A stretch of 25,965 bases of DNA from Sedimentisphaerales bacterium (GTDB lineage: Bacteria; Planctomycetota; Phycisphaerae; Sedimentisphaerales; SG8-4), in contig JAFGJR010000330.1 of the NCBI GenBank assembly GCA_016928975.1, positions 1 to 25,965 on the forward strand, given 5' to 3'. The notes beneath the pieces are model-generated. The model did not search any database and was not told the origin of the DNA. It was given only the letters and a program-made list of their open reading frames with translations. Both the position numbers and the translations under genes were made by a program. Below, in pieces: positions 7,769 through 25,965 of the stretch. How positions within the stretch are numbered: position 1 is the stretch's first letter; every line of letters begins with the position of its first letter.

Positions 7769-9301
7769 TCAAGCCTTCAAGCCACCGACGGTCATCGACT
7801 TCACCAGACAAGTCGGCAGGCCGAAACCGACGGGCACCGCCTGTCCATCCTTGCCACAGTAGCCGGCACCGCCCTGGTACATCTCCAGGTCGTTGGCCGC
7901 CATCGTGATGTTCCTGAGCATCTTCGGGCCGTTGCCCATAATGTTGACGTCCTTGATCGGTGCGGTCAGCTTGCCGTCCTCGATCAGGCGGCCCTGGGAC
8001 ACGTAGAACGCGAAATCGCCTTCACCGATCTTGACCTGCCCATTGCTCACGTCTTTGACGTAGATCCCTTTGCCTGCGCTCTTGATCACCTCTTCCGCCG
8101 TCGCGGGCCCCGCGAGCATATAGGTGTTTCGCATGCGAGGCAGGACGTAGTGCTCATAGCTTTGCCGCCGGCCGTTGCCCGTCGGTTGCACCTTGTAGTG
8201 CTTCGCGGAGATCCGGTCGTGCATGTAGCTGCGCAGGATGCCATCCTGGACCAGGACGGTCCTCTGGCCCGGCACGCCTTCGTCATCGACGTTGAGCGAG
8301 CCGGTCAGGCTGGGGTTCGTGCCGTCGTCGACGATGGTGACAAACGGCTCGGCCACCTGCTTGTCGATCATCGTCGCATAGGTGGAGATGCCCTTGCGGT
8401 TGAAGTCCGCCTCCATGCCGTGACCGATCGCCTCGTGCAGCAGGATTCCGGTGACTCCCGGCCCGAGCACGACCGGCATTTCGCCCGCCGGTGGCTGCAC
8501 GGCCTCAAAAAGGACTACGACCCGGTCCACCGCCTCATTGGCGACCTGATCGACCAGCGCCGGCGTGTAGAACGAGAAGTCCTTTCGACCGCCGAGGTGC
8601 CACGCCGCCTGTTCCGGCCTGCCGTCTTTGACGGCTACCACGCTGGCCAGGAGCCAGTCCTTTGGCAGCAGGTCCTCCGCCTTGACGCCGTCGCTGCTGA
8701 CCACCATCACCCGCTTCTGCTCGTCATGGAAGACAGCGTTGACTTTGACGACCAGTGAAGACCGGGCAAAGCACTTCTCATTCAGAGACTGCACCAGCGG
8801 GAGCTTGGATTCCAGAGGCACCGACGTCAGGAGCCTCTCCAGGGGGTAATGATTCGTGAACCTGGGTGTGACAAACTCGCCTGCCGGCTCGTGCGCCGAC
8901 GCATCGGCTATCGTGGCGGCCGTCGCGGCGGCGGCGAGCATGGATTCCGCCGTCAGGTCCTGCGTGAACCCGTACCCGACCTGATCGTCCCGGACCGTGC
9001 GGATGCCTGCGCCGAGGGACACGCTGCTATAGGCCTGGTTGACCTTGCCGTCCTCCAGCACGACATAGTTGGCGATCGTGTGCTCGAAGTACAAGTCCGC
9101 GAAATCGCCGCCTTTGGACAGCGCCCTGGCCAGCACGCGCCGGCACACGTCGTCCGTGATGCCGAACGCCGATTCGAAGTACCCCTTCTCGTCGGCCCGA
9201 GCCAGACTGTGCCATCCCGCGGGCAGCAACGATCCCACGGCTGCCGCCGAGGCGACCGCTCCTGTCTGTTTGAGAAATGACCGCCTTGTGAATGTCCTCA
9301 T
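7769..9301 (-). CDS. tldD: TldD-type metallopeptidase with Tat signal
   Basis: A 510-aa zinc metallopeptidase of family U62. The metal motif HEAIGH spans residues 289-294 inside LLHEAIGHGMEADF, and the conserved Cys of the CGKxGQ motif is at about residue 482; both match the TldD HExxxH plus Cys ligand set. With PmbA/TldE it forms a barrel-like protease that cleaves unfolded small peptides. Unlike the cytosolic enterobacterial protein, this copy starts with RTFTRRSFLKQTG and an Ala-rich hydrophobic stretch to about residue 27, a clear twin-arginine signal, so it should be exported or membrane-held. The start is supported by AGGGAGG six nt upstream. It is the first gene of the pair with the PmbA-like gene. 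Neighbouring Tat-signal oxidoreductase and amidohydrolase genes fit an exported-enzyme neighbourhood. Confidence 0.88.
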   Translation of the reverse strand: MRTFTRRSFLKQTGAVASAAAVGSLLPAGWHSLARADEKGYFESAFGITDDVCRRVLARALSKGGDFADLYFEHTIANYVVLEDGKVNQAYSSVSLGAGIRTVRDDQVGYGFTQDLTAESMLAAAATAATIADASAHEPAGEFVTPRFTNHYPLERLLTSVPLESKLPLVQSLNEKCFARSSLVVKVNAVFHDEQKRVMVVSSDGVKAEDLLPKDWLLASVVAVKDGRPEQAAWHLGGRKDFSFYTPALVDQVANEAVDRVVVLFEAVQPPAGEMPVVLGPGVTGILLHEAIGHGMEADFNRKGISTYATMIDKQVAEPFVTIVDDGTNPSLTGSLNVDDEGVPGQRTVLVQDGILRSYMHDRISAKHYKVQPTGNGRRQSYEHYVLPRMRNTYMLAGPATAEEVIKSAGKGIYVKDVSNGQVKIGEGDFAFYVSQGRLIEDGKLTAPIKDVNIMGNGPKMLRNITMAANDLEMYQGGAGYCGKDGQAVPVGFGLPTCLVKSMTVGGLKA

Positions 9302-13222: not shown

Positions 13223-14386
13223 TCAGGGTTCCTGTGAGGTTCCGGTGAGGCGTTGGAGGGCGGCGTCTTTGTCTTTGGGGGCCATGTGGCTGTGGCGGAC
13301 GGCTTCGGCTAAGGTGGCAATCGTCTGGTCGTAGGTGCGGCGGTCGACGGGGTAGGGGGTGGCGTCCTTGCCGCCGTGGGCGAAGGAGTAACGAGCGGGG
13401 TCCTCGTAGGAGGGCTTGGCGCCGTAGATCACCTCGCCGACTAAGGACAGGGCGCGGACGGTCTTGGGGCCGACGCCTTCGGTGGCGACTAATTGCTCGT
13501 AATTCTTCGGGCGGGCGTCACAGAGCAGGCGGAGGATCTTTTCCAGGTAGCGGCTTTTCGAGAAGTCCTCGGCCAGGACCGGGTGCTGAGTGAACTCGGT
13601 GTTCTCCAGTTGCAGGAAGGTCAGTTGCTCGCCTTCTTTCCGCAGGCTCACCATCTTACTCAGGGGCGAGGCGTGGGCGCGGAGGATTTCGATATCCTTC
13701 ATCAAGGGCTGATAGCTGGCGTCCACCATCTCGACGCTGAGCTGCCGGCTCGACTCACTGTCGCGTGCGGTCAGGTTCAGCAGGTACTGCCGGCGGCTTG
13801 GGGCGACGATACCGGTGTGCGGCTCGCAGACAAGGTCGTGGACGTTCTCGGAGAACCAGTGATAGCGGCGAGCGGAGGCGTCGGCCTCGTTCATGCCCTG
13901 TTGCACGACCGCCCAGGCGCCGTTACGCGAGAAGAAGAATGCGTGGTGGTAGATCTGGTAGCCGTCCTGGACGAGCGAGTTGTCCACCTTGGCCGCCATG
14001 CGCGAGTTGTAGATGAGATTGTCCACGGCCCCGTCGGGCAGGCTGAGGGTATCGCCCCAGGCGGTGATCTCGTCGGGGGTCTTGCGCGAGGTTTTTCCCT
14101 TGCCGCCGCAGATGAACAGGCCGAGGTCCTTCTCCTCGTGGCGGATCGCCTCCTTCAATGCCGCCGTCAGGATCGTCGTCAGGCCGGAGGCGTTCCAGTC
14201 AAAAGCCAGCACCGTGCCGAGCGACTGAAACCAGACGGGGTCCGCGATCCGTCGCACGAACTCATCCGGCCCATACTCGGCCACCAGCACGCGGACCATC
14301 TGCCGGCCCAGCTTGACCATCCGCTGGAACAACCACGGCGGACACCGGCCATGGTCCAATGTGAATGTGGCAACTCCTCGACGCAT
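13223..14386 (-). CDS. DUF763 domain-containing protein
   Basis: A 387-aa protein matching the DUF763 family over its length. It starts RRGVATFTLDHGRCPPWLFQ and contains GLFICGGKGKTSRKTPDEI, YHHAFFFSRNGAWAVVQQGMN, RRYHWFSENVHDLVCEPHTGI and LLNLTARDSE. Near residues 290-315 is a helix-hairpin-helix-like element, LVATEGVGPKTVRALSLVGEVIYG, which suggests nucleic-acid binding. ATG 14386 has GAGG five nt upstream. The family occurs in archaea and scattered bacteria and has no settled function. The gene converges on the DUF2442 gene with only 4 nt between stops, so readthrough from the accessory patch would run antisense into it. Confidence 0.85.
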   Translation of the reverse strand: MRRGVATFTLDHGRCPPWLFQRMVKLGRQMVRVLVAEYGPDEFVRRIADPVWFQSLGTVLAFDWNASGLTTILTAALKEAIRHEEKDLGLFICGGKGKTSRKTPDEITAWGDTLSLPDGAVDNLIYNSRMAAKVDNSLVQDGYQIYHHAFFFSRNGAWAVVQQGMNEADASARRYHWFSENVHDLVCEPHTGIVAPSRRQYLLNLTARDSESSRQLSVEMVDASYQPLMKDIEILRAHASPLSKMVSLRKEGEQLTFLQLENTEFTQHPVLAEDFSKSRYLEKILRLLCDARPKNYEQLVATEGVGPKTVRALSLVGEVIYGAKPSYEDPARYSFAHGGKDATPYPVDRRTYDQTIATLAEAVRHSHMAPKDKDAALQRLTGTSQEP

Positions 14387-14661: not shown

Positions 14662-16059
14662 CTACCGGCCGACGTTCTTCCGCTGAAGCGCCTGGTGGTC
14701 AGCATCGACCTGTTGGATCTTCTGCTCGGTAGTCACGAGCTTCTCAGGGGCATTCATTTGTTCATACAGGGCCTTCAGTTGCACGAGGGACAGCTTCCGC
14801 ATCGCGATGCCGACGAGCTGAACGATGTGCATGCCTTCGGGATCGCGATTCAGCAACTCTCCGAGATGCAGGGCGGCTTCAAGGGTCCTTTCGGCGGCCT
14901 GATAGTCTCCCGCCGATTGCCCGGTCTTCGCTCGGTCAATTAGCTCAAAGCACATCTTTCGGAGCATGTTGCACGATTCCAGGACGACCGGCATGACCTG
15001 CTCTCGTTCGTCCTGTTTCATCTTGACGAGGTCCGGCTCGGTCAACGTGAGCACATAGGGCTCGTTTTCGAATGTGATTTGTGCGTTCCAGTCGACGTCC
15101 AGAATGCTCTCGACGCCTTCGTTGGTCTGACCATTGGCCCAGAGTCGAAGTGCGGCGGCAATCTTCTTGCCTTCCTGGGAGTCCTCGGCGGCCGGCTTGA
15201 CATCGCTCCGGCTCATCAGGTTGGACAGAGCATAGCCGGATGGAACCGCCATGCTGAAGAGAGACTTGTCCGGGTCCGGATCCACAAGGAAATTCTCCAG
15301 GGTGAACACCAACTGGTTTCCGGGCGGCTTCAGCGCCGTCGAAACAATCTCCACCTTCAGAGGGAGGCCGGAATTGACCTGCGCCCACAGGGTGATCTCG
15401 TTGCGGAAGTATGCGTCCTGGTGCGCAAGAGTGAATCCGTGGGCCTTCATGCCTTCGACGGTCGCCTCACCCAGATCATCCTCTGCTCCGGTGCGCAGGC
15501 GCCACAGCTCCTCTATCGGACGCGAGCACAGCAACAGGAGTTGATCGGTTCCCGTATTGCGCGACTGCTCAAGCCCGTTTGTGTAGCGAACGGTCTTGGA
15601 CGGATGGAGCAGGAGCAACGATTTCCGCGATTCGAGATTCACGATTGTGGTGGCGTTTTCCGGCCCGGCTGTGTCATCGAAACGCGCGCGTCCCTGCTGA
15701 TACACGCTGCCTCGAACCGTCTTCTGGGCGTCGCCGGAACGAATCGTCAGATCGAAGCTGTAGCTGCTCCTTTGAAGGTGATCGAGGACCTCCGCGAGGG
15801 CGATGCCGGCCCCGGTCCCGTGCCAGAGCGATGCTGCCAGGATGATCCCGGCGAGCGTCACGACCGCCGCGGCGGCGAGTTTGGCTGATGAACTGTTCAT
15901 GATAAGCCTCCATATCCTCGGCTTTCGCCGGGGTGATCTGCGTTCCACGGCTTTCCCATAGGCTGTCTTCACTGTCTCGAAGACAGCCTCATCGGAAGCG
16001 GCGTTGGTCCGCACCACCGCGCTGTGGAACAGTTGTCTCATCTTGTCTGCGGAATTCAC
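14662..16059 (-). CDS. Sigma-coupled single-pass membrane protein, module 1
   Basis: A 465-aa protein. The N-terminal ~55 residues are cytoplasmic and share the pattern KMRQLFHSAVVRTNAASDEA - VFETVKTAY with the partners in modules 2 and 3. A membrane helix lies at about 60-79, followed by LWHGTGAGIALAEVLDHLQ. The outer part starts like a LolA/RseB-type lipoprotein-sensor fold (SSYSFDLTIRSGDAQKTVRG). It ends in a helical, repeat-like region (residues ~385-450) that may be TPR-like. The start is a GTG that overlaps the sigma gene stop (GTGA), so translation is coupled. By position and topology it is a candidate membrane regulator of the sigma factor, but it has no recognised zinc anti-sigma (ZAS) motif. 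Confidence 0.78.
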   Translation of the reverse strand: MNSADKMRQLFHSAVVRTNAASDEAVFETVKTAYGKAVERRSPRRKPRIWRLIMNSSSAKLAAAAVVTLAGIILAASLWHGTGAGIALAEVLDHLQRSSYSFDLTIRSGDAQKTVRGSVYQQGRARFDDTAGPENATTIVNLESRKSLLLLHPSKTVRYTNGLEQSRNTGTDQLLLLCSRPIEELWRLRTGAEDDLGEATVEGMKAHGFTLAHQDAYFRNEITLWAQVNSGLPLKVEIVSTALKPPGNQLVFTLENFLVDPDPDKSLFSMAVPSGYALSNLMSRSDVKPAAEDSQEGKKIAAALRLWANGQTNEGVESILDVDWNAQITFENEPYVLTLTEPDLVKMKQDEREQVMPVVLESCNMLRKMCFELIDRAKTGQSAGDYQAAERTLEAALHLGELLNRDPEGMHIVQLVGIAMRKLSLVQLKALYEQMNAPEKLVTTEQKIQQVDADHQALQRKNVGR

Positions 16060-16601
16060 GTTTCCACCTCACTGTTGAGCAATGCCCGCAGCTTCTCCAT
16101 GCCATACCGGTATCGCCCCTGCACAGTGTTGACCGATGTATTCTGGATTTCGGCAATCTCTCGAAACTCCATGCCTGCTTGGAATCGCAGCGTCACGGCC
16201 TCTCGCTGCTCCAGGGGCAGTCTGGACATTGCCTTTGTGATTTGCTGCATCTGTTCGTTCACTACGGCCCATTGATCGGGCGGACGGACTCGCGTGGTCT
16301 TTGTCGCCGCCCCGTCCGGTTGGGCCGCTTCGCGACGCCGGCAATCGCGCCGGAAGGTCCGAATCCGATTCACCAGACACGTGATCAGGAAGTTCTTCAG
16401 GTTGCCGTGATCGCTGATCCTGTCGAAGGACTCCGCCAGCTTCAGGAATACATCCTGAACAGCATCCTCTGCATCGTGAATATCGCCCATCAGGAGAATT
16501 GCCAGCCTGAGCAGACCGAGTTTGTGCCTGTCATAGATCAGCCGCAGGGCATCGACCCTGCCCCGTCGGAGTCTCGAGATGAGCCGTTCTTCTTCCCGCA
16601 T
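16056..16601 (-). CDS. ECF-type RNA polymerase sigma factor, module 1
   Basis: A 181-aa sigma-70 family factor of the ECF group. Region 2 is visible as DALRLIYDRHKLGLLRLAIL and DAEDAVQDVFLKLAESFDRI. Region 4 is AMSRLPLEQREAVTLRFQAG followed by the helix-turn-helix FREIAEIQNTSVNTVQGRYR. ATG 16601 is chosen by alignment with the other two copies, in which the same MxEExxLI start gives exactly 181 aa; a TTG at 16610 with AAGGA before it is the alternative. The gene is followed with a 4-nt overlap by the membrane partner. A promoter-like element shared with the other two modules lies 34 nt upstream. Confidence 0.87.
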   Translation of the reverse strand: MREEERLISRLRRGRVDALRLIYDRHKLGLLRLAILLMGDIHDAEDAVQDVFLKLAESFDRISDHGNLKNFLITCLVNRIRTFRRDCRRREAAQPDGAATKTTRVRPPDQWAVVNEQMQQITKAMSRLPLEQREAVTLRFQAGMEFREIAEIQNTSVNTVQGRYRYGMEKLRALLNSEVET

Positions 16602-16635
16602 GGCGCCCAAGCTGTCCTTGAATCGCGATTCTCTG

Positions 16636-16668
16636 CCCTATTACACTCCGAAACCGGGTACTTGCGTA
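16636..16668 (-). promoter_or_regulatory. Shared sigma-module promoter element, copy 1
   Basis: On the minus strand TACGCAA (16668-16662) and TAATAGGG (16643-16636) are separated by 18 nt that include GGTTT. The same two blocks with the same 18-nt spacing precede the other two sigma genes. The start codon is 34 nt downstream. It may be a -35/-10 pair for an ECF factor or the housekeeping sigma. Confidence 0.65.
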
Positions 16669-16780
16669 TGGGCCGGACAAAGAAATCTGCAGAAATGGAC
16701 CTCACAGGGGTGATGAGTGCCAACAGAAGGGGCCGGGTGGATGACCCGGCCCATAGGAGAATCGCCACGCTTTCACGCGG

Positions 16781-18121
16781 CTATTTTGGCAGGTCCTTTT
16801 CGAGCTCGGCCAGGGTCGCCGCGTCGACCGTCTCGGCGTGCAGGCTGCCGAAGATGACCCGGTACTGGTCGTCCGAGAGCTTCCATCGCAGCAGGACTTT
16901 GTCGGCATCCTCGGGCGTCACGATGTTGCCGTAGTACACCGGGTCCTTCTTGTCCTTCACGAGCGTCATGTAAAACATCGCCACGCCCTGAACCGGCATC
17001 ATCGCATTCATCACTTTCTTGGTTGTGTTGGCAGTTATCTGTTTGAGTGCCTCGTCCTTCGATACGCCACTCTCGAGCAACTTCTTGAGGGTGACGTCGT
17101 CCTTGCTGTTCGCGTCGGCGATCTTGGTGGTCTGTGACATGAGAGTCACATAGTCCAGCTTCTCCGGATATCGGCCGGTCCGATCGCCGAGCATCTTGAG
17201 GCCTTGGATCGCAGTCTCTTCATTGATCGCCGGCATTTTGATGGTGCCGCCGGGCATCGCCGTGTAGTCAGCCGGGATGACCGGCTTGAACGTCATGCCG
17301 TCCACCGGATAGTCCCACTGGAAGTCGTGCACCACGCCGTGCACCTGCATCTCGCCCATCTGCATGCCGATCTCCGACCGCACTGGAAGCTGGGTCTTGA
17401 CGTCGACCCAGATCTTCACGTCCACCGTGCCCATCACCCCTCCCAGATAGTTCGGATCGGTCGTGCGGAACCCCTCGACCACGACGCCGTCGATGCGGCT
17501 GCGGCCCAGGCTCTCGTACTTGCAGTTCAGGATCTGCTGGAGCATTGCGCCGGGATCATTGTTCTGCTGGCGGGACCTGGCGAGCAGGGTGTCGTCGAGG
17601 GCCATGCGAAGGTACGTTTTCTGCTCCGGCATGATGGAGATAATGGCCTTCTCCTGGGGCAGCATGTACGTCTCGTTGCGAGACATCTTTCCGCTGTTGG
17701 GGTCCACCGCGCCCATGGTCATCTTCATGCCGGCGTCCTGTGCGGACAGGATGGTGGCCTCCATCGTCTGATTCATGGGTGTGCCGGTGGGGCTTTTGCC
17801 GGTGACGGTCATCGTCATCTGGTACATGTACGCGGTGATCTGCTGGACCTGGGTCAGCACGTCTGCCAGGGCAATGCCTGACCCCGTGCCCCTCCAGAGG
17901 GTCAGACCCAGTGTGGCGGCGATGATAACGGCCGCGGCGACAGCGAGTTTTGCGATTGGACTTTTCATGGTCATTCTCCATCGACTCCATGCGAGTGTTT
18001 GGTTCTGTTGGGTCTTCTGCCGAGCCTGGAGCATGTCTTCATAGACCTGCTCGTCCGCATCCGGCCGGATGCTCAGCTCGGCCCTCTTGAACAACTGGCG
18101 AATGTCATCCGCGGGCTTCAT
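16781..18121 (-). CDS. Sigma-coupled single-pass membrane protein, module 2
   Basis: A 446-aa protein starting at the ATG that overlaps the sigma stop (ATGA at 18118-18121); a 71-codon upstream extension runs through the sigma gene and is rejected. The cytoplasmic segment is DDIRQLFKRAELSIRPDADE - QVYEDMLQARQ. The membrane helix is about residues 57-76 (KLAVAAAVIIAATLGLTL), followed by LWRGTGSGIALADVLTQVQ. The outer domain looks LolA/RseB-like: YMYQMTMTVTGKSPTG, then LPQEKAIISIMPEQKTYLRM, then GRSRIDGVVVEGFRTTDPNY, WVDVKTQLPVRSE and HDFQWDYPVDGMTFKPVIP. These last blocks recur almost unchanged in the module 3 protein. The C-terminus, VLLRWKLSDDQYRVIFGSLHAETV, is also shared. It is a putative sensor/regulator of the coupled sigma factor. 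Confidence 0.8.
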   Translation of the reverse strand: MKPADDIRQLFKRAELSIRPDADEQVYEDMLQARQKTQQNQTLAWSRWRMTMKSPIAKLAVAAAVIIAATLGLTLWRGTGSGIALADVLTQVQQITAYMYQMTMTVTGKSPTGTPMNQTMEATILSAQDAGMKMTMGAVDPNSGKMSRNETYMLPQEKAIISIMPEQKTYLRMALDDTLLARSRQQNNDPGAMLQQILNCKYESLGRSRIDGVVVEGFRTTDPNYLGGVMGTVDVKIWVDVKTQLPVRSEIGMQMGEMQVHGVVHDFQWDYPVDGMTFKPVIPADYTAMPGGTIKMPAINEETAIQGLKMLGDRTGRYPEKLDYVTLMSQTTKIADANSKDDVTLKKLLESGVSKDEALKQITANTTKKVMNAMMPVQGVAMFYMTLVKDKKDPVYYGNIVTPEDADKVLLRWKLSDDQYRVIFGSLHAETVDAATLAELEKDLPK

Positions 18122-18663
18122 TCGTGTACCTTGCCGTTTAACACGGACCGTAACCTTTCGATTCCATACCGGTATCGGCCTTTGACCGTATTCACCGACG
18201 CCTTCTGCAGTACGGCGATCTGCGAAAACGTCAGGTCCATCTCCATGTGAGAACAGATCACTTCGCGTTGCTCGTATGGCAACTGCTGCAGAGCTTTGCT
18301 CAGCAGCGACATCTCTTCGCTGAGAATTGCCCACTGCTGGGGCTCCGCCTCGCGAGAGGGCAGCAGGTCCGCCTCATCGAGCGGGCCTTCGCCGTGCCGG
18401 TTGCCGTCACGCACGTGGTTGCGCACCCGGTTGAGCACGCTGGCGACTAAGTAACCCTTGAGGCTGCCAGTCAGCCCGATGCGGTCGGCCGACTGCGCGA
18501 AACTGACGAACACATCGTGGACGATGTCTTCCGCCGTGTACAGATTGCCGACCAGCGTCATGGCGTACCGCAGCAGCTCGACTTTGTACTTGTCGTAGAT
18601 CTGCCGCAGGGCCTCCGGACGGCCCCGCTTGAATCTCAAGATCAGCAGCTTCTCTTCCATCAT
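18118..18663 (-). CDS. ECF-type RNA polymerase sigma factor, module 2
   Basis: A 181-aa ECF sigma factor. Region 2 is EALRQIYDKYKVELLRYAMT and TAEDIVHDVFVSFAQSADRI. Region 4 is ALQQLPYEQREVICSHMEMD followed by the helix-turn-helix FSQIAVLQKASVNTVKGRYR. Two ATG codons are in tandem (18663 and 18660); the first aligns with the other copies. No clear Shine-Dalgarno is visible in the short leader, which is common in Planctomycetota. The partner gene overlaps by 4 nt. The linker between regions 2 and 4 (GNRHGEGPLDEADLLPSREA) differs from the other two copies. Confidence 0.88.
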   Translation of the reverse strand: MMEEKLLILRFKRGRPEALRQIYDKYKVELLRYAMTLVGNLYTAEDIVHDVFVSFAQSADRIGLTGSLKGYLVASVLNRVRNHVRDGNRHGEGPLDEADLLPSREAEPQQWAILSEEMSLLSKALQQLPYEQREVICSHMEMDLTFSQIAVLQKASVNTVKGRYRYGIERLRSVLNGKVHE

Positions 18664-18697
18664 CGTGCACGCGTATCAGAAGAATGTCCACTCTTCA

Positions 18698-18730
18698 CCC
18701 TATTACACACGCAAACCCGCCCGTTGGGTA
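18698..18730 (-). promoter_or_regulatory. Shared sigma-module promoter element, copy 2
   Basis: On the minus strand TACCCAA (18730-18724) and TAATAGGG (18705-18698) are separated by 18 nt that include GGTTT. The start codon of the module 2 sigma gene is 34 nt downstream, exactly as in copy 1. Confidence 0.65.
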
Positions 18731-18875
18731 TATGCTGATGCGACGATTCTTCGCGAATGCACGGGTTTGGAGAGGTTCTGCGTGTGGCGGGTGGCGTCGT
18801 CAAGGCCGAAGACCTTGGCGACTCGCTGTCGTGAGTCAAAACTCGGGCGTCCTCTCACAATCCACTTCGTTCTCT

Positions 18876-19697
18876 TCACTTGCCCCCAGTCCCATTCAAC
18901 AAACCAGGTACGGTATCTGACAGGAAGCGTTTGGTCCTCTCGTATTTCCTGCGCACGGTATCCATTTCATTCTGAATCTGCCCTCCGCATGCTTGTGCCC
19001 TCTCATACTGATGCCGATCCTGCAATTCGTCAGTTGCCATCTGCTCCATGTCAAGTAGGGCATCCCAGACACGTCTCGCCTCATCTGGATTATCGTTGCC
19101 ATGCGCGGCGCGTGTGAAGTTCATGGTGCAGGCCGGCAGATTCTCCGTGTCATGGGCCTCAGATCCGTATCTCGGCTTGATTGGGACATCATAGTCCCGA
19201 TAGTAGTGTTGCCGCCAAACATCATACACCGTCTTCCCATCTGGGTCGTACCGTTTGAGCTTTTCGCACGCGGCGGGAGTTAGAATGAAGCCGAGCCAAT
19301 CTTGACGTTCCGCGTAGTCGTACGCTTCCACCAGTGCCGGTCCAATCAGCACATCACTTGACTCCACGTAAAGGTCGCCGACCGTTAGACTGCCGCGTAG
19401 TGGAATCCTGTGCAGGATCATTCTCTGGAAGAAGAGCCGGCAGGCAAAGTCCATTTTGCAGAAGGAGTCTTTCGAATCGTCCGTCGCAAAAAAGAGGAAG
19501 GTATCGGAGAACCATTTCGTCGTAACGTCACGGCCTTGCTTCTTTATTTCCGCCAACGCGTCCAGGTAATCCGCGAGGACAGTGGCAAGCTGATTCCGCT
19601 TGACTCTATTCCTGAAGCCAAGCAGATCGAAGTACCCCACCCAATAGGGCTTGTATCCAATGCCGGGGCTCTCCATAACCACCCTTTCATCTGCCAT
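18876..19697 (-). CDS. Nucleotide cyclase-like domain protein, 273 aa
   Basis: An unassigned soluble protein with a layout resembling class III nucleotidyl cyclases: KPYWVGYFDLLGFRNRVK (first metal-Asp strand, 'F.D..GF'), TKWFSDTFLFF (second Asp), and PLRGSLTVGDLYVESSDVLI followed by GPALVEAYDYAERQDWLGFI, which corresponds to the cyclase 'R.GI..G.v......iG.avn.A.rlE' block. The typical substrate Lys/Asp residues cannot be identified with certainty, so activity is unproven. The C-terminal ~80 residues form a charged helical region. Similar 'DLLGF' proteins are scattered as accessory genes. The start could instead be ATG 19676, with AAAGGG upstream. No effector gene of the Pycsar type adjoins it. 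Confidence 0.6.
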   Translation of the reverse strand: MADERVVMESPGIGYKPYWVGYFDLLGFRNRVKRNQLATVLADYLDALAEIKKQGRDVTTKWFSDTFLFFATDDSKDSFCKMDFACRLFFQRMILHRIPLRGSLTVGDLYVESSDVLIGPALVEAYDYAERQDWLGFILTPAACEKLKRYDPDGKTVYDVWRQHYYRDYDVPIKPRYGSEAHDTENLPACTMNFTRAAHGNDNPDEARRVWDALLDMEQMATDELQDRHQYERAQACGGQIQNEMDTVRRKYERTKRFLSDTVPGLLNGTGGK

Positions 19698-19754
19698 AAC
19701 GAGATTCGTCGATGGTAATACCTGTCTGCAATGCCGTAAAGCAACATTGTGGAA

Positions 19755-19784
19755 TTGACTGAAGGTCTTTGGCTGTGGTATGTT
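19755..19784 (+). promoter_or_regulatory. Putative promoter for the nucleotidyltransferase gene
   Basis: TTGACT (19755-19760) and TATGTT (19779-19784) are separated by 18 nt on the plus strand, 62 nt before ATG 19847. It sits in the divergent region between the cyclase-like and nucleotidyltransferase genes. Confidence 0.4.
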
Positions 19785-19846
19785 AGAATCAGCAGGGGCA
19801 TCTCTGATCTGTCATTGGATGCAAGCCCTTTTGGAGAAACGATGCC

Positions 19847-20149
19847 ATGAGCATTGTGGATGAGATAAAGGAGGATGTTGTTCGGCTTTGCGAACAGCAC
19901 GGGGTGAAAGAGCTGTACCTCTTTGGCTCTGCGTTGCGCGACGATTTCGGGCCACAGAGTGATGTCGATATGGCCGTGGTGTTTTCACGAGTGGGCATCG
20001 CCGGCAGTTTCGATCAGTACTTTGACTTCAAGACCGAGTTAGAGCGGTTGCTTGGACGCCCGGTGGATCTGGTATGTATAGGCAGTGTTCGCAACAGCGT
20101 TTTCCGGCGTGAACTCGATGAGACCAAGAGGCTCATCTATGCGGCATGA
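19847..20149 (+). CDS. MNT-type minimal nucleotidyltransferase (antitoxin-like)
   Basis: A 100-aa minimal nucleotidyltransferase. The catalytic pattern is intact: LYLFGSALRDDFGPQSDVDM contains GS-x10-DxD (GSALRDDFGPQSDVD), and LGRPVDLV holds the third acidic residue. Such proteins usually form the MNT half of HEPN/MNT toxin-antitoxin modules, where they adenylylate and silence the HEPN RNase. GGAGAAACGATGCC precedes the ATG. Usually a HEPN gene overlaps or adjoins. Here the downstream frame (ATG 20146, overlapping as ATGA) stops after 21 codons, directly before a REP-like hairpin, so the partner appears lost. Confidence 0.85.
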   Translation: MSIVDEIKEDVVRLCEQHGVKELYLFGSALRDDFGPQSDVDMAVVFSRVGIAGSFDQYFDFKTELERLLGRPVDLVCIGSVRNSVFRRELDETKRLIYAA

Positions 20150-20211
20150 TTCAGGATCTTGTAGAGAACAAAATGTGTGTTCTCAAATGCGACATCCTGT
20201 GTCTGTCCTGA
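20146..20211 (+). pseudogene. Possible remnant of a HEPN partner gene
   Basis: A frame beginning at the ATG that overlaps the nucleotidyltransferase stop reads MIQDLVENKMCVLKCDILCL and then stops. The overlap and the 'xLVxNKxxVL' opening resemble the start of HEPN (DUF86/HepT-like) toxins that follow MNT genes. Only about 20 codons remain, so this is a weak assignment based mainly on gene order. Confidence 0.3.
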
Positions 20212-20276
20212 TCTCGCTTGTCAGGGGATCTTGGAGACCCTAACTGAATGACCGTCTGACAAGGGTTGCCGGCCCA

Positions 20277-20348
20277 TGTCATTCCTGCGAAAGCAGGAAT
20301 CCACCTGCGCCGCGGCGTTCCTGGCCCCCTGCTTTCGCAGGGGTGACA
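20277..20348. repeat. REP-like double hairpin element
   Basis: The arms at 20277-20297 and 20328-20348 are inverted copies matching at 19 of 21 positions (TGTCA-NN-CCTGCGAAAGCAGG and its complement). Each arm also contains a small internal palindrome, CCTGC-GAAA-GCAGG in the left copy. This is the structure of a paired REP element. It separates the nucleotidyltransferase gene from the converging LamG-protein gene. Confidence 0.75.
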
Positions 20349-20372
20349 AAGGCCCACTCGCGGCTCGCCTCG

Positions 20373-22583
20373 TTAGGGAGTCTTAGGGGCTACGTTTGGC
20401 GAAGCTTCTTCGTACAGGGCGGTGATTTCATCCTCGGAGAGGGCGTAGCTGTAGATTCGGACCTCGTCGATCAGGCCGTGCCAGAAGCGGTTGGGACGCT
20501 CGCTGTTCTCGCCGATCAGCACGGGCTCGTCGTTGGTGGCGATCCGGCCGGAGGCGGGAGCGGAGGCGTCTAGCTTGCCGTCGATGTAGAGAGCAATCCG
20601 TGTGCCGTCATAGACTCCCACCGCGTGGTGCCATCGGTCGTCGTCCACCTTCGTGCGGCCGCGCGTCGCGCCCCACTCGTCGGCCGTCTTCAGGCCGAAG
20701 CAGGCGAAGAGCAGGCTGTTTGTGCCGCGGTTCTTCTGTAGCCGCCACGCTCTGTCGCCTTTTGTAACGAGGGCCTGGGACTCCTTGTCGAATGATGCGA
20801 TCTTGAACCAGGCGGCGACTGTGATTTGTCCGGTCATGTTGAATTCCGGATTGGCGCCGATCTCCACGTAGTCGCCCTTGCCATCGAACTGCAGTGCGCC
20901 GCCGGAGATGCCACTGGTCCACGTGGGGTCGCCGCGAATTTGCCCGGTGTGCCCATGGCCGCTTGCGTCCGTCACTTGCTTTCCGGCCTTGCCGTCAAAC
21001 CGCCACCAAGCCACGAGGCGGCCCGTATTGAACTGCCAGACTTGCCCAGGGGTGACGGCGTCATCGGCCTGGACTTCATCCACTCGCCAGGAGTATGACG
21101 TCTCTCGCGCAAGGGCGGGCAGTTGCGAGCATTGGGGCTCAGTGACGGTTGCCGCGAGGGTTAGTGAGTGCGAGTCCTGGCCGAAGTAGACCTTGTGTTG
21201 GACCGCTGCCAGACCAGGCGTCCACCGCAGTTCCAGGCTGGTGAGGGCACAGCCGACCGACCTGTCCGCAGGCTGTGGACCGGTGGCAACCGGTTGCAGA
21301 TTCAGCGGCGCTGCCTCCAGCTTGGCCAACTCATCGGCCAACACGTCCCGGGTCGTGAGGTCGCCGAGGATGACCTTGTAGCGCCCGTCGTCGAGCTTCC
21401 ATCGCAGGAGCACCGCGTGAGGCGACTGGGGCGTCACCGTGTCACCGAAGTAGGCCGGCTCCCTCTGCTCACTCGTGAGCATGCTGTGGAGCAGCCACAG
21501 GGCCGTGATCGGCATCATCTTCTGCATGAGGGGTCCGGCATTGTCCGGGTCCTGGATGTACGCCATCGCCTCTTCTTTCTTCATGCTCTTGATCTCGGGC
21601 AGGTACATGATGTAGGCCTTGAGGACCGGCTCGGTCAGGACTCTGGGGTACTGGCCGTTGAGTTCGACGCACAGCCTGAGTCCTTGGACCGCTGTCTCCT
21701 CGCTCATCGCCGGGACCCGGATAGACCCGCCGGCGGCATTGGCATAGCCGTCCGGTATGAGCGGCTGGAACATGGCTGGATCGATGGGCACGTCCCACTG
21801 GAAGTCGTGGCTGACACTGTGCACGACCGTGCCGTCGTTCCATTCGATGTTCTCCTCGGACCGCACGGGCAGTCCCGTCGCCACGTCCACCCACAGGCTC
21901 ACATCCACCCGGCGGGCTCCGCCCTTCGGGTAGTTGGGATCTGTTGTCCGAAATCCCTCCACCCCGGTGCCGTCGAGGGTCGATGCACCCAGACTGGCGT
22001 AGTCACAGCTCTGGAGCCGCACGAGCATCTCGCGGGCGTTGGGGATCTCCTCCCGCAGCTTGTCGGCCAGCCGATCATCGAAGTTGAAACGCATGTACGC
22101 CTTCTCGTCGTGCTGAATCACGACGGCGGTTCTCTCCTTTGGTACGATGTAGGCTTCCACGGCGACCTCGCCGGTGTCGGCATCGCGGAAGACCGCCTTC
22201 GTGCCGTAGTTCCTCGATATCCAGGACGTGGATTTCATCCGTCGGTCCTCGGGACTTGTGTGGGTGATCGTCGCCTCGCAGGTATAGGCGTCGATGCGTT
22301 CCAATCGGGCCAGAACGTCGGCCAGGGCCACTCCGGACCCGGTCCCTTGCCACAGCAGGATGGCGACGGCTCCGACGAGCATCACGACCGCCGCCACCGC
22401 CAGTCTTGTTCTTGTACTTCTCATAGCGAAACTCCATCTCATCGGCTCCCGTAGAGCCGGCTTGTTCTGTCTGGTTTCGAGGTATGCGGTCTTAATCGCC
22501 TCGAACATGGCATCGTCTACTCCGGCGGGTGTTCGCACGCTCGCAGCGCGGAGGTATCGTCTGATCTGCCCCATGGATCTCAT
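20373..22583 (-). CDS. Sigma-coupled membrane protein with C-terminal LamG domain, module 3
   Basis: A 736-aa protein and the largest of the three sigma partners. Its cytoplasmic segment is MGQIRRYLRAASVRTPAGVD - AMFEAIKTAYLETRQ. The membrane helix is about 61-78, then LWQGTGSGVALADVLARLE. The LolA/RseB-like outer domain (about 85-430) shares GVEGFRTTDPNYPKGG, LWVDVATGLPVRSEE, HDFQWDVPIDPAMFQPLIPD and LLRWKLDDGRYKVILGDL with the module 2 protein. An Fn3-like linker follows (about 440-520, ETSYSWRVDEVQ). The C-terminal LamG/concanavalin-like domain spans about 522-725 (LVAWWRFDGKAGKQVTDASG, ALQFDGKGDYVEIG, WHHAVGVYDGTRIALYIDG, GLIDEVRIYSYALSEDEI). LamG domains commonly bind carbohydrates. ATG 22583 overlaps the sigma stop (ATGA). 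Confidence 0.85.
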   Translation of the reverse strand: MRSMGQIRRYLRAASVRTPAGVDDAMFEAIKTAYLETRQNKPALREPMRWSFAMRSTRTRLAVAAVVMLVGAVAILLWQGTGSGVALADVLARLERIDAYTCEATITHTSPEDRRMKSTSWISRNYGTKAVFRDADTGEVAVEAYIVPKERTAVVIQHDEKAYMRFNFDDRLADKLREEIPNAREMLVRLQSCDYASLGASTLDGTGVEGFRTTDPNYPKGGARRVDVSLWVDVATGLPVRSEENIEWNDGTVVHSVSHDFQWDVPIDPAMFQPLIPDGYANAAGGSIRVPAMSEETAVQGLRLCVELNGQYPRVLTEPVLKAYIMYLPEIKSMKKEEAMAYIQDPDNAGPLMQKMMPITALWLLHSMLTSEQREPAYFGDTVTPQSPHAVLLRWKLDDGRYKVILGDLTTRDVLADELAKLEAAPLNLQPVATGPQPADRSVGCALTSLELRWTPGLAAVQHKVYFGQDSHSLTLAATVTEPQCSQLPALARETSYSWRVDEVQADDAVTPGQVWQFNTGRLVAWWRFDGKAGKQVTDASGHGHTGQIRGDPTWTSGISGGALQFDGKGDYVEIGANPEFNMTGQITVAAWFKIASFDKESQALVTKGDRAWRLQKNRGTNSLLFACFGLKTADEWGATRGRTKVDDDRWHHAVGVYDGTRIALYIDGKLDASAPASGRIATNDEPVLIGENSERPNRFWHGLIDEVRIYSYALSEDEITALYEEASPNVAPKTP

Positions 22584-23125
22584 AGTGTTTCCTCACCGTT
22601 GAGCAGCGACCGCAGCCTTCTCATTCCGTACCGGTATCGGCCTTGCACTGTGTACAGGGAGGCGCTCTGGATTCGGGCGATCTGCCGGAAGCCCAGTCGC
22701 GCATCCACTCGCAGCATGACGACTTCCCGCTGCTCCGGCGGCAACTGTGCCAAGGCCTCGCTGACCCGCCGCATCTCCTCGTTCAAAACGGCCCCCTCTT
22801 CGGGATCGCTGCCGGGGATTCGCACGACAGCGGGGTCGAGCGACACATCTGTTTCGTGACGACGGCTGGTACGATGCAGGGTCCGAACCCGATTCACCAA
22901 GCATGCCGTCAGGTAGCTCTTCAGGCTGCCGTGGATGTCGATCCGCTCGTAGGACTCGACCAGCTTGAGAAACACGTCCTGGACCGCGTCCTCGGATCGG
23001 CAGACGTCATCCGTCAGGGCAATCGCCAGCTTGAGCAGATCCACCTTGTACTTGTCGTAGATCCGCCGAAGGGCATCGATACTGCCTCGTCGCAATTTCC
23101 AGATGAGCAGCCTATCTTCCAACAT
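22580..23125 (-). CDS. ECF-type RNA polymerase sigma factor, module 3
   Basis: A 181-aa ECF sigma factor when started at ATG 23125; a 46-codon extension upstream crosses the promoter element and is rejected. Region 2 is DALRRIYDKYKVDLLKLAIA and RSEDAVQDVFLKLVESYERI. Region 4 is ALAQLPPEQREVVMLRVDAR followed by the helix-turn-helix FRQIARIQSASLYTVQGRYR. It aligns end to end with the other two copies in this window. The leader lacks a clear Shine-Dalgarno. The LamG membrane protein gene overlaps by 4 nt. Confidence 0.88.
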   Translation of the reverse strand: MLEDRLLIWKLRRGSIDALRRIYDKYKVDLLKLAIALTDDVCRSEDAVQDVFLKLVESYERIDIHGSLKSYLTACLVNRVRTLHRTSRRHETDVSLDPAVVRIPGSDPEEGAVLNEEMRRVSEALAQLPPEQREVVMLRVDARLGFRQIARIQSASLYTVQGRYRYGMRRLRSLLNGEETL

Positions 23126-23167: not shown

Positions 23168-23200
23168 CCCTATTAGACTCCAAACCCCGCGGTTTGCGTA
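23168..23200 (-). promoter_or_regulatory. Shared sigma-module promoter element, copy 3
   Basis: On the minus strand TACGCAA (23200-23194) and TAATAGGG-like block (23175-23168, CTAATAGGG) are separated by 18 nt containing GGTTT. The start codon of the module 3 sigma gene is 42 nt downstream. Confidence 0.65.
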
Positions 23201-23330
23201 TAGCGGTCGCAAGAAATCCGGCTCTCGTTCAAACCACGTTCCTTGGATCGATAGGATTCGCACGGAATTTGCCTCCCACCGGGCGGAAAATGGCGCATTG
23301 TTTAGGTGGGGAGAGGCTGGGGGGTGATAG

Positions 23331-23741: not shown

Positions 23742-25604
23742 CTACACGACGCTCCCCAGCCTCGCGAAGCGACGGCGCTGGCCCTCGCGGAGCAGGCGCT
23801 TGCGGATGCGCAGCGCGCCCGGCGTGATCTCCACCAGCTCGTCCTGCTGGACGTATTCCAGCATGGCCTCGAGACTCATGAGACGCGCCGGGCGAACGCG
23901 GGCGGCCTCGTCCTTGTTGGACTGACGCATGTTCGTCAACTGCTTGGCCTTGGCGGCGTTGACGACGATGTCATTGTCCTTGCAGTGCTCGCCGACGACC
24001 TGGCCCTCATAGATCGTGTCGCCCGGCTGGACGAAGAAGATGCCTCGATCGTAGAGGGCGTCGAGCGCGTACGCGGTGACCGTGCCGGTCTCGCTCTGGA
24101 TCAGCACGCCGGCCTGGCGGTCGGGGATCGAGCCGCGCATCGGCTCATATTGTTCAAACGTATGGTGCATGACCGCGCGGCCCTGCGTCGCCGTCAGGAG
24201 ACGCGCGTTGAGGCCGAACAGGCCGCGGGACGGGATCATGAATTCCATGTGCACGTAGTCGCTGGCGCTGCTTTTGGTGTCCATCCGCATCAGCTCGCTG
24301 CGGCGCGTGCCGATCAGGCTCATCACGGCGCTCTGGCAATCGCCGGGACATTCGATGACCAGCCGCTCGATGGGCTCCTGCGGGACGCCGTCGATCTCGT
24401 GAATGATCACCTGCGGCTTGCCCACGCACAGCTCGTAGCCCTCGCGGCGCATATTCTCCAGCAGAATCCCCAGGTGCATCAGCCCCCGGCCGGAGACGTT
24501 GAACTCGTCGGCCGATTGCCCCGGCTCCATGCGCAGCGCCACGTTCGTTTGGAGCTCCTTCTCCAGCCGGTCGCGGATCTGCAACGACGTGACGTACTTG
24601 CCATCCCGGCCTGCAAATGGGCCATTGTTGACCTGGAATGTCATACTCATCGTCGGCTCGTCAATCGCCACGATGGGCAGCGCGCTGGGCGCATCCGGGC
24701 AGGCGATCGTGTCGCCGATGTCCACCGGATCGAGACCCGCCACGGCGCAGATGTCCCCGGCCTGGACCTCCGTGGCGCGTCGCTTGGCGAGCCCTTCGAA
24801 GTCGTACAGTTGAATGACCTTCTGCTGCGTGTGATGTCCCTCGCGGTCGATCACCGTCACCGGCTGGGCCTGCGTCAGCTTGCCGGCGAAGATCTTGCCG
24901 ACGGCGACGCGCCCGACGTAGTCGGAATACTCCAGCGTCGTGACGAGCATCTGGAGGGGCTGGTCCGGATCGGCCTTGGGCGCCGGGATGGAATGGATGA
25001 TCGCCTCGTAGACCGGCTTGAGGTTCCTGTTCGGCTTCGCCATGTCTGTCGTCGCCCAGCCCTCCTTGGCGGAGGCGAAGATCACCGGGAAGTCCAGCGC
25101 ATCGTCGTTGGCCTCGAGCTCGACGAAGAGGTCGAAGACCTCGTTGACGACGTCGTTGGGCCGCGAGTCCGGTCGGTCCACCTTGTTGACCACGAGGATC
25201 GGTTTGAGCTTGTGATGCAGGGCCTTGCTCAGCACGAACCGCGTCTGCGGCATGGGCCCGTCGAAGGCATCGACGACGAGCAGCACGCCGTCGGTCATCT
25301 TGAGCACGCGCTCGACCTCGCCGCCGAAATCGGCGTGGCCGGGCGTATCGACGATGTTGATCTTGTACTCCCGACCGCCCCGGCCGGTGTAATGGATTGC
25401 GCAGTTCTTGCTGAGGATGGTGATGCCTCGCTCGCGTTCAAGCGGGTTGGAGTCCATAATCAGGTGGTGCTGCTCGCCGGCCAGCTTGTCCAGCTCTTCC
25501 GTGCGGAACGAGCCGGACTGGTAGAGGAGCTGGTCCACCAGCGTCGTCTTGCCGTGATCGACGTGGGCGATGATCGCCACGTTGCGTACATTCTCTGCGT
25601 ACAT
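23742..25604 (-). CDS. typA: Translational GTPase TypA/BipA
   Basis: A 620-aa protein close to the usual 600-620 aa of TypA/BipA, a ribosome-associated GTPase of the EF-G class involved in ribosome assembly and stress or cold adaptation. ATG 25604 begins [20 protein letters not shown], with TAGGA just upstream; a 15-codon longer frame is rejected. G1 is [10 protein letters not shown]3 is [12 protein letters not shown]4 is NKVDRPDS. The EF-G-like domain has [15 protein letters not shown]. The TypA-specific C-terminal part has [60 protein letters not shown] and the [20 protein letters not shown] end. All features of a functional copy are present. It converges with the small membrane protein gene with no gap. 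Confidence 0.96.
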
Positions 25605-25965
25605 ATTCCTACTTATCCGGGGAGCGGTGAATCCTGCAACCGCGCACACGCTATACAGGATGCGGCGTTGCCTTGTTCACCTGCCTTGAGGGGCCGCAAA
25701 TCCCCAACCGATTCGTAACCTACCCACAAACCCTGCATTCTACCAGACTGCCCACCCCAATGCAATCCCCGGCTTGCCACGACCAGACCCACACCGCCAA
25801 TTGGCTTTGTTTCACACCATCGCTGCGTCGATCATAACTCCTTTCCTGTGAAGTACTTAGCATCAGTTCCGCCGGCGCGAATTGGCTTTGTTTGACGCCT
25901 GCGTCAAAAGTCGGGACATTGCAAGAAGATGTGATAAGTGTTTATTTTGTATGGATTTATGTTAC
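25605..25965. other. Intergenic region upstream of typA
   Basis: About 360 nt with no supported gene. It contains two copies of a short repeat (25796-25900) and becomes AT-rich toward the window edge. I could not identify a convincing promoter for typA here. Confidence 0.5.
25796..25900. repeat. Two copies of the AATTGGCTTTGTTT repeat
   Basis: AATTGGCTTTGTTT occurs at 25799-25812 and 25880-25893, exactly 81 nt apart, within the wider match CGC(C/G)-repeat-(C/G)AC. In the second copy TTTGACGC is followed two nt later by GCGTCAAA, a perfect hairpin (25891-25908). The arrangement suggests a dispersed intergenic repeat present as a degenerate tandem pair. Confidence 0.55.

Follow-up and report, generated by a model that had tools for sequence, protein, structure and literature searches.

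Extracytoplasmic function sigma factors of Phycisphaerae paired with candidate membrane anti-sigma factors that carry a conserved putative internal start

Planctomycetota have very many extracytoplasmic function (ECF) sigma factors, and their controllers are mostly unassigned. Here, we investigated three ECF sigma factor genes, each overlapping the gene of a membrane-bound partner, in a 25,965-nucleotide stretch of a Sedimentisphaerales genome (contig JAFGJR010000330.1; hereafter the window). The closest described systems are RseA-RseB and MucA-MucB, in which an ECF anti-sigma factor is served by a periplasmic sensor of LolA fold; CnrY-CnrH and NepR-EcfG, of class II; the ZAS (zf-HC2) domains, of class I; and RsiV of Bacillus subtilis, in which a signal peptide is the membrane anchor. 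RseB is a separate protein bound to RseA. Class I anti-sigma domains average 101 ± 33 amino acids in length, according to the excerpted text of PMC7406223. In RsiV, as given in excerpts of PMC6066255, bound ligand displaces the helices that follow the cleavage site, and signal peptidase then performs the initial cleavage.

The window's modules resemble each of these in part. As in RseA-RseB, a LolA-like sensor is predicted, but here sensor and clamp lie in one chain, with a probable free copy of the sensor from an internal start. CnrY and NepR place one short helix on sigma-4 and one on sigma-2; in the partners, two helices are predicted and couplings to sigma-2 are strong, and those to sigma-4 are at the level of the largest shuffle. 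Unlike those proteins, the partners carry the LolA/RseB-like sensor in the same chain, have a probable internal start, and belong to a family that spans the order and has many paralogues. ZAS domains occupy the same place before the membrane helix and, in relatives, sit on the same sensor chassis, whereas the segment described here has ~50 rather than ~100 residues, two predicted helices, and a different sigma clade. The partners' signal peptide may anchor them much as in RsiV, by analogy with which we suppose a cleavage; a further likeness is an A-x-A site followed by a helix (residues 84–93 of partner 2, P0004). In contrast to RsiV, the partners have no DUF4179 match: partner 1 (P0002) and P0004 gave no Pfam match, and partner 3 (P0006) gave only laminin-G matches.

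The outline of the module, an ECF sigma factor with a membrane anti-sigma factor, is real and ordinary. What is unusual is a short, predicted two-helix clamp on a LolA/RseB-like sensor, the way this clamp and ZAS domains replace each other on a single chassis, and, most of all, a putative internal start conserved at base level. We think it likely that the window holds three autoregulated ECF sigma/anti-sigma modules built in this way. Comparative sequence evidence supports the pairing, the co-inheritance of sigma factor and partner N-terminus, the conserved internal start, and a shared upstream element.

Three modules and their relatives

All six reading frames were located, as three minus-strand pairs (see Table 1 for coordinates). 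A previous reading of this DNA from its letters alone, the sequence-only reading, had described sigma factors of exactly 181 amino acids whose stop codons overlap the partner starts by 4 nucleotides (nt), and these coordinates, lengths, and overlaps were all reproduced (GTGA 16056–16059, ATGA 18118–18121, and ATGA 22580–22583). The mechanical open frames of sigma 1 (TTG) and sigma 3 (GTG) run further upstream than the starts in Table 1. All three sigma factors have Sigma70 regions 2 and 4 only, as expected of ECF proteins, and score above the Pfam and TIGR02937 cut-offs; sigma 2 and sigma 3 are 45% and 52% identical to sigma 1. Over their first 95 residues, partners 2 and 3 are 41% and 45% identical to partner 1, and alignment of the three bears out the N-terminal segment, single membrane helix, and LWxGTGxGxALAxVL motif that the sequence-only reading had seen in common.

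A protein search with residues 1–100 of P0004 yielded 88 proteins among 628 candidates, 71 of which align over at least 86% of the query. Several of the 26 relatives examined whole have the membrane helix and outer domain with a different cytoplasmic part; 3 of the 88 have a precomputed zf-HC2 (ZAS) domain, and others have further short N-terminal kinds. Sedimentisphaerales is the name on three database matches, and nine loci obtained by scanning named genomes bear the titles Phycisphaerae, Phycisphaerales, or Planctomycetota. Each of the nine genomes has matches at E 0.01 (5–27 per genome). At E 1e-6, matches occur in at least 88 of 118 sampled genomes from the order of genome G001, at least 81 of 397 from the class, and at least 4 of 294 from the phylum; these are lower bounds, with at most 42, 12, and 17 candidates scored per genome, respectively, and the profile spans the membrane segment too, so ZAS and other kinds are included. 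One genome has up to 34 matches at E 1e-5. The family is thus apparently an order-level expansion. The located relatives of this large module family belong to Phycisphaerae (Planctomycetota).

From 271 records, we assembled 326 distinct sigma/partner pairs after dropping 32 duplicates, with the 4-nt overlap in 206. Partner genes found mostly without an adjacent sigma gene would speak against the module, but only 5 partners lacked a sigma gene within reach, and 14 more lie too close to a contig edge to judge. The pairing is thus far beyond chance; as a profile of the partner N-terminus and membrane segment selected almost every record, the counts are not representative of all sigma factors in these genomes. 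No natural sigma-partner fusion was present among the first 224 pairs. A search for outer-domain copies lacking an anti-sigma segment gave 67 open reading frames outside the pair list, and most of the 20 listed were duplicates of pairs or contig-edge pieces. One LolA-like outer-domain copy (L005, 2266–3688, plus strand) has a membrane segment and no recognizable anti-sigma segment or sigma gene of its own; a ZAS-type partner (L141, 777–2247) lies directly upstream of it on that contig stretch.

The N-terminal segment and its sigma factor

The AlphaFold model of P0004 places N-terminal helices at residues 3–13 and 20–40, with low confidence there (predicted local distance difference test of 40–69 by block). 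With two predicted helices and too little room for a three-helix bundle and a fourth helix, the N-termini do not have the four-helix, ~100-residue layout of class I; of the first 224 pairs, 203 non-ZAS pairs have the start of the membrane helix at residue 49–76 and 21 ZAS pairs have it at 95–134. The sequence-only reading saw no ZAS motif in this segment, and indeed the HxxxCxxC (PF13490) zinc motif is absent from all three partners, and a Pfam search of their N-termini gave no match up to E 1. Nor was there an anti-sigma family among the 16 Pfam families matched by 55 aligned rows, of which 29 are partner N-termini. Searches of PDB sequences with P0004 (up to E 1) likewise found no anti-sigma chain, and none is among the seven sequences listed for the N-terminus profile up to E 10. 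The only NCBIfam match with an anti-sigma name, NF052375 to P0004, was rejected (E 0.0095, 15.9 bits against a cut-off of 100); choice_anch_R, CU044_5270, and TafC (P0006 C-terminus) also matched, and bear no anti-sigma name. A profile of the second half of the segment can be aligned to the final 44 columns of the profile for ZAS at an hhalign probability of 95.6, partly from the shared juxtamembrane end.

As a sequence family, the segment matches no named Pfam anti-sigma family and no PDB sequence, and the comparison with anti-sigma families that the sequence-only reading called for ended without a named assignment. Its suggestion of a new anti-sigma type holds insofar as Pfam and PDB sequences contain no match, and less well insofar as the predicted two-helix layout and contacts resemble class II (CnrY, NepR) and helix 4 of class I. 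We found no paper describing these N-termini or an anti-sigma gene with two starts, in a search that did not cover the paper reclassifying ECF factors or one large survey of planctomycetes. From comparative evidence, the first ~50 residues of the partner are probably a short non-zinc anti-sigma domain, one without a Pfam or NCBIfam name, that holds the sigma factor in check.

Clustering the cytoplasmic segments alone gave 12 clusters: 238 rows of the window's kind, 40 ZAS rows, and ten smaller clusters. On the sigma tree, the ten N-terminal kinds with at least two rows (324 rows) need 9 changes, the minimum, compared with 83.5 on average for shuffled labels. Where the outer domains are homologous (186 pairs, 11 kinds), the changes number 41 on the outer-domain tree and 42 on the membrane-segment tree but 10 on the sigma tree. 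Few changes on the sigma tree against many on the other two indicate that sigma factor and segment travel together and have repeatedly been rejoined to different sensors. The family also offers a simple rule for sensor exchange. Eight of the smaller clusters (e.g., ‘NDKWLDEAL’ and ‘FKKLVNRLNI’; 2–12 rows each) each form one clade on the sigma tree and are likely additional short anti-sigma types. In an earlier set of 177 pairs, the sigma-segment correlation was 0.50, with a maximum of 0.22 in 500 within-genome shuffles. Together, domain swapping, mirror-tree, and coevolution analyses give good support to the sequence-only reading's proposal that the N-terminal segment binds sigma.

We applied mean-field coupling analysis to the 234 pairs of the window's kind that were left after 8 of 242 had been removed because their sigma reads were short (effective number 209). 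The strongest inter-protein couplings join sigma K27 to partner D23 (12.8 standard deviations) and sigma H49 to partner D29 (11.0), compared with 8.8 for the strongest coupling within sigma and at most 5.4 in eight within-genome shuffles. D/E23 occurs with K/R27 in 147 of 163 pairs versus 4 of 71 with other residues, and D/E29 with H49 in 126 of 157 versus 13 of 77 otherwise. In the window, all three pairs have K27 and D23, whereas H49 with D29 is found only in pair 2; pairs 1 and 3 have Q49 with A29 or T29. The sigma-4 couplings S173-K2 (5.5 standard deviations) and M140-R8 (5.2) would fit helix 1 lying on sigma-4, at the level of the largest shuffle and not clearly above it. K27 and H49 align with K28 and Q50 of SigW, and their counterparts in Escherichia coli RpoE are, we presume from an alignment by eye, about Q30 and Q51, at or beside positions 31 and 51. 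In four crystal structures, these positions contact class I anti-sigmas at helix 4 and at the linker between helices 3 and 4 (PMC7406223, excerpts), which suggests that the coupled sites lie on the sigma-2 surface used by class I anti-sigmas. These two predicted contact pairs make specificity directly testable. A predicted model of sigma with the segment, built from 4 paired read-through rows and 26 sigma rows, also shows two helices in the segment. We discarded a pair model with unpaired partner rows, as MAFFT had placed the short partner rows on the sigma N-terminus.

Several observations weigh against binding as we propose it. Gene adjacency can itself produce co-inheritance; on the sigma tree, there are only 12 and 17 changes at the coupled sites of sigma and 14 and 37 at those of the partner; and contrasts that are strictly independent, numbering 6 and 7 pairs, point in the right direction but fall short of significance. 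We do not rely on a looser closest-contrast count (59 same and 0 opposite; 48 and 4), since mismatched control pairs are also one-sided (24 and 9; 23 and 4). The sigma and segment model has only 4 paired rows and comes without contacts or predicted aligned error, and SigG1, a compact sigma factor listed without an anti-sigma factor, fits it as well (3.1 Å over 156 residues). Overlapping genes are rarely separated by recombination, and the co-inheritance could reflect gene linkage alone, with a segment that does not bind sigma. We consider this very improbable: the two charge-complementary couplings stand alone above the rest, the N-terminal kinds change no more than the minimum on the sigma tree, and the segment correlates rather more with the distant sigma-2 (0.34) than with the adjoining membrane segment (0.28; a difference without a significance test) or the outer domain (0.15), which makes linkage the weaker account. 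It is somewhat less improbable, though still quite unlikely, that the partner is a positive co-regulator or scaffold of sigma, in the manner of the FecR N-terminus for FecI, instead of an inhibitor. In its favor, association and coevolution do not reveal whether the partner's effect on sigma is positive or negative, and the 59 N-terminal residues of FecR are essential for ECF activity (PMC7406223, in excerpt). Against it, relatives have ZAS domains, which usually act as inhibitors, in the same slot, and the putative contact sites are on the part of sigma-2 covered by class I anti-sigmas (PMC7406223, Table 2, in excerpt).

The outer domain and a conserved internal start

Foldseek and VIA-align support the sequence-only reading in assigning the outer part a LolA/RseB-like fold: the predicted structure is a half-open beta-barrel with a helical lid. 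In several structural alignments, residue 83 of P0004 stands opposite residue 1 of mature LolA. An A-x-A site occurs in 168 of 321 partners versus 78 in shuffled segments, with its last Ala mostly 31–36 residues past an internal Met. The modest Foldseek TM-scores (at most 0.68 by target length among the 50 matches listed) and the presence of A-x-A in only 168 of the 321 partners weigh on the other side.

The sequence-only reading missed a possible second translation start. In all three partners, GGAG and seven bases precede the Met that lies before the membrane helix (residue 52 of P0004; residue 54 of P0002 and P0006). This codon is ATG in 291 of 324 aligned rows, GTG or TTG in 6, and another codon in 27, and a Shine-Dalgarno-like tetramer at −14 to −5 accompanies it in 285 of 291, 4 of 6, and 10 of 27 rows, respectively. 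At codon −3, Arg is AGA or AGG in 261 of 262 rows (AGR is 33% of all Arg codons in the partners) and Ser is AGT or AGC in 17 of 17; this skew in synonymous codons, 2.1 bits versus 0.07 by chance, implies a constraint on bases rather than residues. A lesser bias (0.55–1.1 bits) extends over codons −5, −4, +2, +3, +5, and +6. The Shine-Dalgarno spacing is 7 nt in 273 of 278 cases, also the commonest spacing at accepted partner starts (155 of 326, where 108 have no Shine-Dalgarno sequence). After thinning below 40% identity, ATG with a Shine-Dalgarno sequence is found at the internal codon in 184 of 215 rows and at other codons from −40 to +200 in at most 3; out-of-frame ATGs have one in 101 of 1391 cases. 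Each of the 12 N-terminus clusters has rows with the internal start, including 39 of 40 ZAS rows. Among 31 offsets in 160 sampled genes, predicted mRNA structure is weakest at the internal ATG (−3.5 kcal/mol, versus −5.0 at the start of the partner and −6.7 to −13.2 elsewhere within 50 nt). A stand-alone gene in genome G111 (L280, 1400–1640), ~100 nt past the previous stop and without an anti-sigma segment, begins with the same initiation region (GGAGATTGACCATGAAAAGTACAATCACAAAG).

The predicted short product should be a LolA-like protein with a normal signal peptide, separately exported. We regard it as likely that this is a dual-start anti-sigma gene family, making a full-length membrane anti-sigma factor with a fused lipid-binding sensor and, from the conserved internal start, the free exported sensor. 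Any exported protein could then be recruited as a sensor by placing a sigma and two-helix cassette before its signal peptide, and RseA-like and RseB-like components would come from one gene in a ratio set by translation. If so, such sensor genes would make two proteins, the second of which annotation would overlook. Three findings tell against the dual start: 33 of the 324 rows have no internal ATG, with the Shine-Dalgarno sequence kept in 10 of the 27 that have no alternative start codon either; the search profile included the Met, which inflates conservation of the Met though not of the Shine-Dalgarno sequence; and the weak mRNA structure is mostly A+T richness, the corrected excess being 0.9 kcal/mol and the same at −45 nt. 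The modules could be as proposed and GGAG-N7-ATG a relic or a recombination seam that joined cassettes to exported proteins. One seam does join 12 cytoplasmic-segment clusters to varied outer domains, and the synonymous bias reaches past the Shine-Dalgarno sequence, so a longer stretch of DNA is conserved. However, the 7-nt spacing is the commonest one at accepted starts, the Shine-Dalgarno sequence is mostly lost where the ATG is lost (a comparison of related rows), and the G111 gene uses the same region as a normal start; we judge a relic or seam unlikely.

Upstream element, proposed mechanism, and neighboring genes

All three sigma genes share a promoter-like element, ATACSCAA-N15-GTSTAATAGGG, 35–76 nt before their start codons, which was also absent from the sequence-only reading. 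TAATAGGG occurs three times in the window versus 0.06 expected, and the full pattern, derived from these sites, three times versus 0.00. A related regular expression matches 17 of 231 upstream regions, including the window's three, and 0 on the other strand, with 0.7 expected from loci at large. A two-block model finds an oriented element in 174 of 232 upstream regions and in 6 of 232 reversed; it was trained on the same regions, with a threshold from the reversed set and no held-out test. Ten related genomes contain seven occurrences of a strict pattern, spread over six of the ten: six are ~580 nt before a known partner, directly before its sigma gene, and the seventh precedes a further such sigma gene where a contig ends. 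The operon is likely autoregulated through this element.

For the sigma-inhibiting action, the ligand class, proteolysis, autoregulation, and the role of the short form, we infer the following scheme. The first ~45 residues of the partner would form two helices clasping sigma, helix 2 on the RNA polymerase-binding surface of sigma-2 and helix 1 probably on sigma-4, so that no large folded or zinc-binding domain is needed. This clamp would keep sigma at the membrane. The membrane helix would be the signal peptide of a LolA/RseB-like exported protein, retained as an anchor, which would place an outside lipid or lipoprotein sensor (as its fold suggests) and a sigma clamp in one chain. Signal binding may lead to cleavage near A-x-A and within the membrane, perhaps by the RsiV route with signal peptidase making the first cut, and the released sigma would switch on the operon from its own promoter. 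From the internal ribosome-binding site and ATG, the sensor would also be made by itself and, having an ordinary signal peptide, be exported as a free protein, which could buffer ligand, act as a competitor in the manner of RseB, or serve as the effector.

Table 1. Features of the three modules in the window, with positions counted from its first letter
Feature	Position	Strand	Basis
ECF sigma factor 1 (P0001, 181 aa)	16056..16601	-	Pfam Sigma70_r2/r4_2, TIGR02937 above cut-off
Partner 1 (P0002, 465 aa): putative anti-sigma segment, signal-anchor, LolA-like outer part	14662..16059	-	GTGA overlap, alignment
ECF sigma factor 2 (P0003, 181 aa)	18118..18663	-	Pfam, TIGR02937
Partner 2 (P0004, 446 aa)	16781..18121	-	ATGA overlap, AlphaFold model
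ECF sigma factor 3 (P0005, 181 aa)	22580..23125	-	Pfam, TIGR02937
Partner 3 (P0006, 736 aa)	20373..22583	-	ATGA overlap, alignment
Putative short anti-sigma segment, partner 1 (~residues 1–47)	15919..16059	-	Alignment, family analyses
Putative short anti-sigma segment, partner 2 (residues 1–45)	17987..18121	-	AlphaFold model, family analyses
Putative short anti-sigma segment, partner 3 (~residues 1–47)	22443..22583	-	Alignment
Candidate internal Shine-Dalgarno GGAG and ATG, partner 1 (residue 54)	15898..15911	-	
Candidate internal Shine-Dalgarno GGAG and ATG, partner 2 (residue 52)	17966..17979	-	
Candidate internal Shine-Dalgarno GGAG (within Trp-Ser codons) and ATG, partner 3 (residue 54)	22422..22435	-	
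Membrane helix / signal-peptide core, partner 2 (residues 55–78)	17888..17959	-	AlphaFold model
A-L-A, signal-peptidase-like site, partner 1 (residues 87–89)	15793..15801	-	Alignment, A-x-A count
A-L-A, signal-peptidase-like site, partner 2 (residues 84–86)	17864..17872	-	Sequence, A-x-A count
A-L-A, signal-peptidase-like site, partner 3 (residues 86–88)	22320..22328	-	Sequence, A-x-A count
Predicted LolA/RseB-like outer domain, partner 2 (residues 83–295)	17237..17875	-	Foldseek, VIA-align
ConA/laminin-G-type domain, C-terminal extra, partner 3 (residues 567–720)	20424..20885	-	PF13385, 116 bits
Promoter-like element, sigma 1	16636..16669	-	ATACSCAA-N15-GTSTAATAGGG
Promoter-like element, sigma 2	18698..18731	-	ATACSCAA-N15-GTSTAATAGGG
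Promoter-like element, sigma 3	23168..23201	-	ATACSCAA-N15-GTSTAATAGGG

Among the window's partners, only P0006 has the C-terminal ConA/laminin-G-type domain. Extra C-terminal parts also occur in relatives, such as the ankyrin repeats of P0077 (precomputed Pfam) and the ~270 further C-terminal residues of P0043 and P0047. Between modules 2 and 3 lies an MNT-type nucleotidyltransferase gene (PF18765, PF01909; 19847–20149, plus strand), and a 273-residue protein with no Pfam match is encoded upstream of sigma 2 on the same strand (18876–19697, minus). Other neighbors in the window are a BamB-like propeller (1580–2917), a TldD/PmbA peptidase (7769–9301), a DUF763 protein (13223–14386), and a TypA/BipA GTPase (23742–25649).

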